A stretch of 64,000 bases of DNA, taken from assembly GCF_039655775.1 (NCBI RefSeq), contig NZ_JBBYXJ010000002.1, forward strand, positions 992,001-1,056,000, written 5' to 3'. The translations under genes and the position numbers were made by a program. Positions 44,297 through 47,422 of this stretch are shown here, one piece after another. The first letter of the stretch is position 1. The number at the start of each line of letters is the position of its first letter. The stretch comes from Iodidimonas sp. SYSU 1G8 (GTDB taxonomy: Bacteria > Pseudomonadota > Alphaproteobacteria > SMXS01). The notes beneath the pieces are model-generated. The model was not told the origin of the DNA. It saw only the letters and a program-made list of their open reading frames with translations, and made no database searches.

Positions 44297-45004
44297 TCAG
44301 GAAATCCGCAGAGTCGTCAGTCGTTGCTGAAGCTCCAGCAGCAAGGCCTGGGTTCGCTCGCGGCTGTCGCCCTTGAGCACCGGGAGCAAGGTCTTGCAAG
44401 CCGAATATTTCTGGGCATCCGCCAGATACTCGTCGGGAATGACGCCATTGGCCCAATAAAGCCGGGTGCTGCCTGAATCCAGGATCAGGTCGCGCAGGAT
44501 GAAGTCGATGTCCGTGCTGTCGAGCAGGTCGCCCTGACGCTGGATATCCATGATCGCCTGCCGGTGAAACTTCTGCCAGATCTCCTCGATCGAGAACTTG
44601 CCGGGATTGGGAAACAGGATCGGCTCCAGCGCCCGGGCCAGATTGGGAATTTCCAGGATCGCGGAGGCGGACCGTTCGATCATGTCCATCAGGCGATCGA
44701 AACCCGTCTTGCCCGTGGTGCTTCTGTCGATGGCCTCGAACACCAGACGCAGCCGTTCCTCTATGGCCTTGCCCAGCAGGTTGTCCTTGCTGCCGTAGAG
44801 GTCGTAGAGGCTCTTGTAAGCCACGCCGCTCTTCTCGGCGAGTTCGCGCATGGTGACGCCGGCATAACCCTTTTCGGCAATCAGTTGACGCGCCACCGAA
44901 AGAATATTGGAGCGGCGGCGCAGTTGCCGTTCGGTCAGGCGCTTCAGAATGGCGGCTCTCCCTTTGATCCCGGACGCTGAATGAATCGACGTATTTTTCA
45001 GCAA
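44297..45004 (-). CDS. TetR family transcriptional regulator
   Basis: A 235-residue regulator. The N-terminal helix-turn-helix (about residues 30-75) is RRRSNILSVARQLIAEKGYAGVTMRELAEKSGVAYKSLYDLYGSKDNLL. The helical ligand domain follows. The effector is not predictable. It stands alone between two terminators and near no obvious target, so autoregulation or a distant target is likely. Confidence 0.87.
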   Translation of the reverse strand: MLKNTSIHSASGIKGRAAILKRLTERQLRRRSNILSVARQLIAEKGYAGVTMRELAEKSGVAYKSLYDLYGSKDNLLGKAIEERLRLVFEAIDRSTTGKTGFDRLMDMIERSASAILEIPNLARALEPILFPNPGKFSIEEIWQKFHRQAIMDIQRQGDLLDSTDIDFILRDLILDSGSTRLYWANGVIPDEYLADAQKYSACKTLLPVLKGDSRERTQALLLELQQRLTTLRIS

Positions 45005-45063
45005 GATTGCGCATCCCGCCGGTGCGAGTCGAGCAGGAATGAAGGGGCGGGCGTGACGGTCCC

Positions 45064-45096
45064 AAAAAAGAATGCCGGGCTCTTGCGAGCCCGGCA
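45064..45096 (-). terminator. Strong leftward rho-independent terminator
   Basis: A perfect 10-base-pair stem (tgccgggctc / gagcccggca, 45073-45082 and 45087-45096) closes a four-base loop (TTGC on the plus strand). On the minus strand it is followed by TTCTTTTTT. It lies about 410 bases beyond the LysR stop, so it more likely ends a separate transcript. Confidence 0.85.
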
Positions 45097-45315
45097 GTAT
45101 AGGGAAGACTTCACGTCTTGGGGAGACGATGAATGGGAGGACCCTAGAAACGGGGAGGAAATAGGGCCAGCTCCCACGAAAGCCTCAATATGAGGAGGCC
45201 TTCGGTGCCGCCACGCTGAACCGTTGCTTCGTGGCGACAAAAATGAAATTAGTTGTGCGCTGCACCACGGTCCAGCAGGAAACCGTCAGATCAGGCATGT
45301 TATTTTTGCATATCA
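45064..45315 (-). ncRNA. Candidate trans-acting small RNA with anti-Shine-Dalgarno motifs
   Basis: A leftward transcript of about 250 bases is suggested by a likely promoter (TTGAGT, 17 bases, TTGATA on the minus strand, around 45310-45340) and a strong intrinsic terminator at 45064-45096. The minus strand repeats CCTCC at 45194-45198, 45154-45158 and 45136-45140, complementary to ribosome-binding sites. A CCTCA-ATA-TGAGG hairpin is near one of them. Such CCTCC-rich sRNAs are known in alphaproteobacteria. The RNA is inferred, not observed. Confidence 0.42.
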
Positions 45316-45509
45316 AAAAAACAACCTCTTTCTACTCAAGGGCTTATATGGGGCGCGCCTGAAATATGCGGTATTTGTGCGGCGCAACATCGTGGGTGAT
45401 GACCGTATCGGCGGGCATAGGAGCACGCGTGACCAAGACAACGCAGATGGATCCGCGCGGTCTTGACTTCAAGAGTGACGAGTGACGATCGTGTACGCCG
45501 CCGGACGGC

Positions 45510-46403
45510 TCAGAACTTGCCGCTGCGGACCTGATCGACCAGGAAGTCGCGGAAAACGGTGATTCGGGTCACGTTGCGCAACTCTTCCGGATAGACGAAA
45601 TAGACCTTGAAGGTTGGCCCTTCGAGATCCGGGAGCACCTGCACCAGATTGGTGCCTGGCGTGGCGATGTAGTCCGGCAGGGCCGCCAGACCCAGACCGC
45701 TCTCGACGGCCTTCAGGATACCGTAAATGTTGTTCACGGCGAGCACCGGCTCGCGCACCCGATCGCCCGCGCCCGCGTGGATGATCCAGTTGAGATCCTG
45801 CAACGGCCTGGGCGCTTCGGGGCCATAGCTGATGATGGCGTGGTCATCCAGTTCCTGGGTGGTCTTGGGAGCGCCGTGCTTGGCGACGTATTCCGGCGAC
45901 GCATAGATGTGGTAGTGAACCGTCATCAGCTGCCGCTGGATCAGGTCGGGCTGGTGCGGCGGATGAAAGCGGATCGCCGCGTCGGATTCGCGCATGGCGA
46001 TGTCGATTTCCGAATCCGACAGCAAAAGATTGATGCCGATATCCGGATAGGCGAGCTGAAACTCCCTCAGATGCGGCACGAGCCACGTGGAGCCGAACCC
46101 GACGGTCGTGGTGACGTTCAGCCTGCCGCGGGCCGCCGTGCGGCTGTCCCGCAGGATCGCCTCCGTGCGTTCCAGCTTAACGAAGACCTCGCTGACCGTC
46201 TCGAACAGGGTTTCGCCCTGCTCGGTCAGGATGAGGCCACGCGGATGCCGGTGGAACAGCGAGAAGCCAAGGCTTTCCTCAAGACCGGAAATCTGGCGGC
46301 TGATGGCCGACTGGCTCAGGTTCAGCTCGTCGCTGGCATGGGTGAAGCTCCCCGCCTTGGCGACCGAGTAGAAAGTGCGCAGCTTGTCCCAATCCATGGC
46401 CAT
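45510..46403 (-). CDS. LysR family transcriptional regulator
   Basis: A 297-residue LysR protein. The N-terminal winged helix is MDWDKLRTFYSVAKAGSFTHASDELNLSQSAISRQISGLEESLGFSLFHRHPRGLILTEQGE. The periplasmic-binding-like effector domain follows (LRFQLAYPDIGINLLLSDSEIDIAMRESDAAIRF region). It is in the same orientation as trxB upstream (50 bases away), and a regulatory link is possible only by proximity. The target and inducer are unknown. Confidence 0.9.
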   Translation of the reverse strand: MAMDWDKLRTFYSVAKAGSFTHASDELNLSQSAISRQISGLEESLGFSLFHRHPRGLILTEQGETLFETVSEVFVKLERTEAILRDSRTAARGRLNVTTTVGFGSTWLVPHLREFQLAYPDIGINLLLSDSEIDIAMRESDAAIRFHPPHQPDLIQRQLMTVHYHIYASPEYVAKHGAPKTTQELDDHAIISYGPEAPRPLQDLNWIIHAGAGDRVREPVLAVNNIYGILKAVESGLGLAALPDYIATPGTNLVQVLPDLEGPTFKVYFVYPEELRNVTRITVFRDFLVDQVRSGKF

Positions 46404-46453
46404 CCCCCGCTGATGATGCCGACTAAGGAGAGATCGTCTCTCTCCTTCTATGC

Positions 46454-47422
46454 TTATTCTGCCGCCTGCTTGCTACGGACCTCATGGGCGGCGATGAACT
46501 TTTCCGCCTCAAGCGCGGCCATGCAACCCATGCCCGCCGCCGTAACGGCCTGACGATAGATCTTGTCGGTCACATCGCCCGCCGCGAATACACCCGGCAC
46601 CGAAGTCGAGGTGCTGTCCGGATTCTTCAGGATATAGCCGCCGTCGTCGAGCGGAAGCTGGCCCTTGAACAGCTCGGTGGACGGCGAATGACCGATGGCG
46701 ATGAACACGCCATGCGCGGGTACTTCCGAGAGAGCGCCCGTCTTGGTGTCGCGCAGACGCACGCCGGTCACGCCGAGCGGGTCGGTGCCGCCCAGAATGT
46801 CGTCAATGGCCGCGTTCCAGATCACCTCGATCTTCTCGTGGGCGAAGAGGCGCTGCTGCAGCATCTTTTCCGCCCGTAAATCGCCCCGACGATGGACCAG
46901 GGTCACCTTGGTGGCGAAATTGGTCAGGTACAGCGCTTCCTCGACAGCGGTATTACCGCCGCCGACCACGATCACTTCCTTGCCGCGATAGAAAAAACCG
47001 TCGCAGGTGGCGCAGGCGGAGACGCCAAATCCCTGGAACTTCTGTTCGCCGGGGATGCCCAGCCAACGGGCCTGCGCGCCCGTCGCGATGATCAGGGTCT
47101 CGCCCACATATTCGTCGCCGCTGTCGCCAATGGCAACGAACGGTCGGCGCGACAGATCGACGCTGACGATGGTGTCGGAGATGAGCTGGGTGCCGACATG
47201 TTCGGCCTGCGCACGCATCTGTTCCATCAGCCAGGGGCCCTGGATGACGTCGGCGAAACCCGGATAGTTCTCGACATCGGTGGTGATGGTGAGCTGGCCG
47301 CCGGGCTGGATACCCTGCACCATGACGGGTGAAAGGGCGGCGCGGGCGGCGTAGATGGCCGCCGTATACCCGGCCGGACCGGAGCCGATGATGAGAACCT
47401 TCGTCTCGATGCGTTGTGCCAT
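46454..47422 (-). CDS. trxB: Thioredoxin reductase
   Basis: A 322-residue flavoenzyme. FAD-binding GSGPAGYTAAIYAARA at the N-terminus, the redox pair C137/C140 in SACATCDGFF, NADPH-binding VVGGGNTAVEEALYL, and the C-terminal FAD contact GVFAAGDVTDK. It reduces thioredoxin with NADPH. The peroxiredoxin gene lies 127 bases upstream in the same orientation, which suits a shared peroxide-defence role. A CACTCTAGAGTG palindrome lies between them. Confidence 0.96.
   Translation of the reverse strand: MAQRIETKVLIIGSGPAGYTAAIYAARAALSPVMVQGIQPGGQLTITTDVENYPGFADVIQGPWLMEQMRAQAEHVGTQLISDTIVSVDLSRRPFVAIGDSGDEYVGETLIIATGAQARWLGIPGEQKFQGFGVSACATCDGFFYRGKEVIVVGGGNTAVEEALYLTNFATKVTLVHRRGDLRAEKMLQQRLFAHEKIEVIWNAAIDDILGGTDPLGVTGVRLRDTKTGALSEVPAHGVFIAIGHSPSTELFKGQLPLDDGGYILKNPDSTSTSVPGVFAAGDVTDKIYRQAVTAAGMGCMAALEAEKFIAAHEVRSKQAAE

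Follow-up and report, generated by a model that had tools for sequence, protein, structure and literature searches.

A conserved structured RNA gene downstream of lsrB as an AbcR-like small RNA candidate in alphaproteobacteria, with LsrB-type and PhaR-type boxes in its promoter

The window, a stretch of 64,000 nucleotides of DNA analysed as a whole, has a gap of 505 bases between a TetR-type reading frame (5' end at 45004) and a LysR gene (from 45510), as the first-pass annotation of this DNA had described. The following genes lie in and next to the gap.

46454-47422, minus strand: trxB, thioredoxin reductase, upstream of lsrB (TIGR01292, 408 bits, cut-off 343)
45510-46403, minus strand: lsrB/vtlR ortholog of the LysR type, upstream of the RNA and on the same strand
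45064-45238, minus strand: small RNA of about 175 nt with five hairpins (model R1, homologs, covariation and fold z-score), with a probable 5' end

The LysR protein of the window was compared with the chains of solved structures. The best match was 9hh1 with an E-value of 9e-95, whereas the runner-up reached 1.6e-31; 9HH1 is LsrB of A. tumefaciens (PMC11975290). The order trxB-lsrB-sRNA corresponds to the place of AbcR1/2 in the Rhizobiales. In A. tumefaciens, abcR1 and abcR2 come after trxB-vtlR (PMC7486931), and in S. meliloti the AbcR pair adjoins lsrB (PMC8844928). A 2025 paper, with a tree on few species, calls LsrB unique to the Rhizobiales (PMC11975290). The Hfq gene was found in nine of the ten genomes of the window's order, and the genome without a match is 78% complete. 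As a side observation, the LsrB protein of the window (45510-46403) has no cysteine at all. Among 80 named LsrB matches (L067-L146, the best 80 of 585), the matched region contains none in 48, one in 28 and two in 4. Disulphide redox sensing, as described for LsrB of S. meliloti (PMC8844928), is impossible in the orthologs that lack any cysteine.

We conclude that the gap contains a conserved leftward gene for a non-coding structured RNA. A DNA search found homologs in all ten genomes of the window's order, with 16 copies in total and two copies in six of the genomes, and a wider set of 60 genomes added three further genomes with short weak matches only. Model R1 scores the window RNA with 206 bits, the window copy being one of its ten training rows. 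The window's own genome has one second copy (C1:1701290-1701464), and copy b is without lsrB and without the exact palindrome described below. The second copy (L016, 1502-1676) lies away from lsrB among reading frames that by eye look VOC-like and SnoaL-like, with a PhaR-type box and without the exact palindrome. The first-pass annotation had stated that no coding gene fits, and indeed no reading frame is kept over 14 copies on either strand. A conserved small protein gene, named beforehand as one finding that would overturn the RNA, was rejected, since stop-free stretches vary from copy to copy and the lengths of the copies are offset by single bases. The proposed type, a leftward structured trans-acting sRNA with loops resembling anti-Shine-Dalgarno (aSD) sequences, is supported by conservation and covariation. 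Its proposed length of about 250 bases was too long, as the RNA runs for about 175 nt from 45238 to 45064 on the minus strand. The identity of lsrB, the family across the class, the PhaR-type box and the other copy in the genome go beyond that first reading.

The fold of the 175-nt RNA has an energy of -80.3 kcal/mol and a z-score of -7.7, and none of 200 shuffled sequences was equally stable. For a stretch of 259 nt, the z-score was -5.5. Covariation was analysed in a model-fitted alignment of 14 of the 16 copies, where L007 and L019 were excluded because they are truncated by contig ends. In this alignment 93.0% of the cells can pair, compared with 33-46% for slid structures, the tested structure being derived from the window's own sequence and the alignment from the model, both of which favour that structure. 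None of 500 shuffles reached the observed covariation score, and the comparison of relatives that had been proposed showed hairpins that covary, with 21 of 49 pairs altered on both sides. RNAalifold on alignment A1 missed hairpin 3, probably from alignment shifts, and the structure was therefore drawn from the single-sequence fold. In the alignment, invariant C-rich loops alternate with variable stems. The elements of the RNA are as follows.

45207-45238, minus strand: hairpin 1 (GTCGCCACG...CGTGGCGGC), with pairing in 95.1% of cells and two-sided changes at 3 of 9 pairs
45177-45204, minus strand: hairpin 2, with two-sided changes at 7 of 10 pairs; its invariant loop CUCAUAUU (45187-45194) is fully unpaired
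45134-45176, minus strand: hairpin 3, with two-sided changes at 7 of 11 pairs; its aSD-like loop UUUCCUCCCCGUUU (45148-45161) is 0.94 unpaired
45110-45133, minus strand: hairpin 4, mostly invariant and with pairing in 94.4% of cells; its loop is CCCCA, for which CGTCTCCCAGACG is the common form in the class
45097-45109, minus strand: linker, 0.98 unpaired, that holds a second aSD-like site, GUCUUCCCU (commonly GCCTCCCTG in the class)
45064-45096, minus strand: intrinsic terminator, a 10-bp stem and a T tract, 99.3% of cells paired

The stem of 10 bp (45096-45073) and the following TTCTTTTTT (45072-45064) had already been seen on the minus strand, and both are present. A terminator scan found 2 sites against 1.6 expected, so that the scan alone is no proof. 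The three CCTCC motifs that had been noted are also there (45194-45198, 45154-45158 and 45136-45140), but only the middle one is exposed: its CCUCC is unpaired with a probability of 0.91, whereas the other two lie within stems with 0.20 and 0.02. CCTCC occurs 92 times in the window where 185 are expected, and three of them within 63 nt therefore stand out. The accessible conserved sites of the RNA are CUCAUAUU, UUUCCUCCCCGUUU, CCCCA and GUCUUCCCU.

Relatives outside the order were searched for in 385 genomes of the class. With model R1, made from ten copies, 71 of the 385 genomes gave a match at E <= 0.01, including five from the order of the window. Fifteen distant R1 loci have a common 3' module, mostly CGTCTCCCAGACGTGAAGCCTCCCTGTT..ACT followed by a terminator; ten of them have the same LysR gene just upstream and five are without an adjoining lsrB. 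From these 15 loci, model R2 was built. In the window, hairpin 4 is the start of the module.

45064-45129, minus strand: class-wide 3' module, 45.7 bits and E 8e-10 with model R2, which contains no rows from the window's order; since R2 was made from loci found by R1, this match is not fully independent

At E <= 0.001, R2 matched 184 of the 385 class genomes, nine of which rest on E-values above 1e-4. In a phylum-wide draw of 279 genomes it matched 31 genomes of the class and, at E 4e-4 to 9e-4, four outside it, and we therefore regard that level as background. The background level is also reached by suhB loci (up to 25.8 bits). The fairest test was given by named lsrB loci picked by their protein alone, the best 80 of 585 confirmed matches; this set is independent of the circularity between R1 and R2. 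At E <= 0.001, R2 found the 3' module at 52 of these 80 loci (the best 80 of 585) and not at the other 28, and 47 of the 52 modules lie within 600 nt downstream of the lsrB stop codon. When only the 75 lsrB loci with at least 400 nt of sequence were counted, 49 had the module. Among the remaining 26, nine have one or both of the published AbcR motifs CTCCTCCC and GTTCCCCTC in the next 500 nt, and a recognisable AbcR is seen at some lsrB loci of the Hyphomicrobiales (Rhizobiales), with both motifs in L106, L108, L126 and L144. As far as our searches reach, an sRNA model outside the Rhizobiales is new (Azospirillum, Magnetovibrio, Thalassospira, Kiloniella and Falsiroseomonas). The module can also be repeated: one small genome, G242, has five copies (L188-L192), and at L073, L075 and L100 two or three modules stand in a row behind lsrB (Thalassospira and a MAG).

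The promoter region was then analysed on the minus strand. The sequence TTGAGT-17-TTGATA at 45339-45311, earlier taken for the promoter, is present, but was rejected as such since its -35 element is, by eye, not kept in related copies. Judged by conservation and covariation, the RNA begins close to 45238, about 70 nt beyond the point that had been assumed. A sigma-70 scan of 44300-46500 found no promoter-like site, and for this reason we infer the start. Conservation over both copy types begins around an ATGC..GCAT block and the box TGCGGCGCACAA, and the first hairpin begins 26 nt past the start of the PhaR-type box. The following elements were assigned.

45375-45386, minus strand: second PhaR-type box TGCGCCGCACAA, a match to the consensus
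45297-45311, minus strand: LsrB-type palindrome ATGCAAAAATAACAT, degenerate and imperfect in the window (ATGCR-N5-YGCAT in the class)
45246-45274, minus strand: putative core promoter TGGACC-17-TAATTT, found by eye on the alignment, a weak match
45253-45264, minus strand: PhaR-type box TGCAGCGCACAA within the putative -35/-10 spacer, an exact match to the consensus TGCRNYGCASMA

The LsrB-type palindrome was counted as TGCR-N5-YGCA, which fits T-N11-A, the general binding form of LysR proteins (PMC8844928). It is found at -71/-72 in seven of the nine lsrB-linked copies of the order. Class-wide it occurs at 62 of 78 loci of genomes with phaR (1.7 expected from shuffles) and at 18 of 38 loci of genomes without phaR (0.5 expected). 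In the protein-chosen set (best 80 of 585) it was found at 37 of the 52 loci with a module, compared with 1.0 expected and 4 in the control on lsrB coding sequence. GCAT-N3-TG-N3-T, the consensus published for VtlR, was seen at 14 of 78 loci with phaR and 10 of 38 without, as well as in three of the nine lsrB-linked copies of the order, and is absent from the window.

The promoter in the window also carries a predicted PhaR site, TGCRNYGCA. The PhaR consensus TGCRNYGCASMA comes from work on Bradyrhizobium, where it was derived from footprints and promoters (PMC6201568). Within the window, this promoter is the one place with matches to it, two in number, a count that 11 of 100 shuffles equal and that is not significant. 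In the whole genome (G000), it occurs 62 times compared with 28 for the reversed pattern. The phaR gene is present in eight of the ten genomes of the order. In these, the core at -26 was found in all 13 copies examined (the full 12-mer in nine), and all seven lsrB-linked copies have a second core at -147 to -149. In the two genomes of the order without phaR, the core was absent from both copies examined; a third copy in these genomes (L019) ends before the promoter and was not counted. The two genomes without the box also have no PHB synthase and have retained the palindrome, and PHB synthase is found in the other eight (over the cut-off in seven).

For the class outside the order, 116 R2 loci were used, with those lacking phaR taken among the matches listed (E to about 2e-10) together with a part of those having it. 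The boxes were counted from the search coordinates at all 116 loci, since a regular expression for the module missed 24 of them. The core was present at 43 of 78 loci with phaR and at 3 of 38 without (Fisher 5e-7), where some genomes scored as lacking phaR are incomplete; shuffles predicted 1.5 and 0.6, respectively. The full 12-mer was found at 27 of 78 and 0 of 38 loci. Counted per genome the core was present in 42 of 74 against 3 of 29, and per family in 26 of 40 against 3 of 18 (p 0.0014), a weaker link than per locus. Fourteen of the 40 phaR-bearing families have no PhaR core, and three genomes scored as lacking phaR retain it (G075, G112 and G233, which are 100%, 99% and 70% complete). 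Among the families with both states of phaR, f113 and f124 agree with the link and f56 does so partly, while f87 and f95 are without the box in either state. The presence of the box is thus linked to the presence of phaR, with exceptions in both directions.

When spacers of 0 to 8 nt between the half-sites were compared, strong enrichment was observed at N1 and N5 only. N0, N2, N3, N7 and N8 were near background, and N4 (9/78) and N6 (6/78) were slightly raised. N4 was again raised in the protein-chosen set (10 of 52, best 80 of 585). In that set (best 80 of 585) the core was found at 18 of the 52 loci with a module, with 0.6 expected and 1 in the lsrB coding control. Of 34 pairs of palindrome and box in the class, 27 have a centre-to-centre distance of 76-83 bp, but in the window's order this distance is about 44 bp, and the box is therefore differently placed there. 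Both boxes, together with the module, are present at two loci from Azospirillum. We also noted two PhaR cores, TGCAGCGCAGTA and TGCAATGCAGCA, upstream of the phaR gene at L045 (about 1300-1370), as autoregulation would predict. The TGCRNYGCA core occurs in three AbcR promoters of the Rhizobiales as well (L106, L108 and L144), and PhaR control may therefore extend to the true AbcR. The PhaR-type box in the promoter suggests that carbon stores may control the RNA in many alphaproteobacteria.

Our preferred reading, which we hold to be likely, is a trans-acting aSD sRNA that would be, in this lineage, the positional and functional counterpart of AbcR under proposed LsrB and PhaR control. What the sequences themselves show is a conserved gene for a structured RNA, its synteny, two patterns of boxes and an association of the PhaR-type box with phaR. 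LsrB, encoded just upstream, would bind the TGCR-N5-YGCA palindrome near -65 and activate the promoter. PhaR, the sensor of PHB, would repress it from the TGCRNYGCA box over the core promoter; when PHB accumulates, PhaR would be drawn off and the RNA would be made. In S. meliloti, PhaR acts as a sensor of PHB and as a repressor of mmgR, an sRNA gene (PMC12542648). Together with Hfq, the C-rich loops (UUUCCUCCCCG, CCCCA, GUCUUCCCU and the lineage-specific CUCAUAUU) may then base-pair at the ribosome-binding sites of mRNAs for uptake and metabolism, which would reduce the translation of these mRNAs. AbcR itself acts via two aSD motifs on mRNAs for transport and metabolism (PMC8844928). Transcription of the RNA, binding of the proteins, the direction of control, the pairing and the targets are what we infer here.

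The same synteny and aSD architecture would also be expected of a divergent AbcR (ar15) ortholog that is under LsrB control only, with the TGCRNYGCA boxes belonging to another factor or being a relic. The LsrB-type palindrome is the commoner of the two (62/78, the PhaR core 43/78), both boxes share the TGCR/YGCA half-sites, and 14 of 40 families with phaR lack the core. However, the core tracks phaR (43/78 and 3/38, and also within f113, f124 and the window's own family), it fits the consensus derived from PhaR footprints, and N1 and N5 alone are strongly enriched among the spacers from 0 to 8. We therefore consider control by LsrB only to be rather unlikely. Membership in the SorX or suhB/MmgR (ar8) family, instead of a counterpart of AbcR, seems very improbable: the window matches SorX (18.8 bits) and suhB (15.8 bits) below threshold, relatives reach 47.0 bits for SorX (L063, cut-off 46.6) and 35.1 bits for suhB (L060), and PhaR does repress mmgR in S. 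meliloti (PMC12542648), but a true suhB (65 bits) is found elsewhere in the same genome, and SorX comes from the ompR-1 3' UTR, not from beside lsrB, and the window's scores for both models are far below their cut-offs. Also very improbable is an RNA that serves as a sponge or titrates a protein, so that its repeated C-rich loops would capture a protein or a different RNA and not the ribosome sites of mRNAs. Several similar exposed loops of invariant sequence would suit such a role, and Caulobacter has a precedent in CrfA, which is known to act as a sponge for aSD sRNAs. However, the loops look like the aSD seed, whereas a sponge of aSD sRNAs would show its complement, and AbcR, at the equivalent position, directs loops of this kind at mRNAs (PMC8844928).

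If the AbcR-like RNA under LsrB and PhaR is the right reading, it may be part of a class-wide and probably old alphaproteobacterial switch, in which an LsrB box and a PhaR box on one promoter drive an AbcR-like sRNA, a full PHB store shuts nutrient uptake after transcription, the box is mostly absent without PhaR, and AbcR of the Rhizobiales is one branch and not the origin. On balance we lean towards this wider picture. AbcR sRNAs have been described in Rhizobiaceae and Brucellaceae (PMC3712013). Published statements on the synteny remove part of the novelty; the PhaR input, new as far as our searches reach, would add a testable PHB signal to the network of nutrient uptake. In the open-access literature searched, no link between PhaR and the AbcR promoter was found, and AbcR is not named in the main text of the paper on PhaR of S. 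meliloti. In that species, AbcR has AniA (PhaR) among its putative targets (PMC8844928), and control may therefore run both ways.

With respect to the known families, scans of the window with Rfam models led us to reject membership in ar15, suhB, SorX, ylbH, VqmR and PinT. The ar15 model (RF02345) did not match the window, even with the threshold set at E <= 10. A search of the class with ar15 matched 0 of 385 genomes, but 0 of 14 controls as well, and is therefore uninformative. Among ten lsrB loci scanned, three, all in Rhizobiales, gave weak ar15 matches (29.7, 25.1 and 24.1 bits, cut-off 40). R2 scored three AbcR loci of the Rhizobiales with 26-27 bits (E 3e-4 to 5e-4), and matches of this strength occur outside the class as well. 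Since the RNA did not match the ar15 model and direct homology is only hinted at, we class it as an AbcR-like counterpart and not as a member of ar15.

The RNA resembles AbcR1/AbcR2 in its place downstream of trxB-lsrB on the same strand, the putative LysR-type box upstream, the Hfq gene and the frequent occurrence of more than one copy. Like AbcR it has two unpaired aSD motifs, in a hairpin loop and in a linker, of similar but not identical sequence; the motifs are CUCCUCCC and UUCCCCUC in S. meliloti (PMC8844928). Those of Brucella AbcR are CUCCCA and GUUCCC. It differs from AbcR in its length (about 175 nt versus 114-121), in having five hairpins and not three, in the missing match to the ar15 model, in other loop sequences (CUCAUAUU) and in the PhaR-type box in the promoter. 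With MmgR/SisA (ar8, suhB) it shares an exposed aSD-type C-rich motif before a strong terminator, and the mmgR promoter has a PhaR site; MmgR, however, has 77 nt and another locus. The score for suhB (RF00519) in the window was 15.8 bits, below the gathering cut-off of 41. In Rfam, suhB and ar15 share one clan. A canonical suhB/MmgR RNA was observed in the same genome (G000:C2:373063-373141, L042, 65 bits). The 120 nt upstream of this copy do not contain TGCNNNGCA; PhaR control may have moved between sRNAs. SorX also has a hairpin, a CCUCCCUGUU-like linker and a terminator, and is the best Rfam match for most of the distant relatives inspected, but it is processed from the ompR-1 3' UTR; its model (RF02784) gave 18.8 bits in the window, below the cut-off of 46.6. 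At L063 (1504-1573), the SorX match of 47.0 bits is just over this cut-off, though the locus lies behind lsrB; the family of the window RNA and SorX may be related. NfeR1 (ar14, RF02344), with three identical aSD motifs as published, likewise carries several such motifs on one RNA, but has other motifs and gave no match in the Rfam scan of the window.
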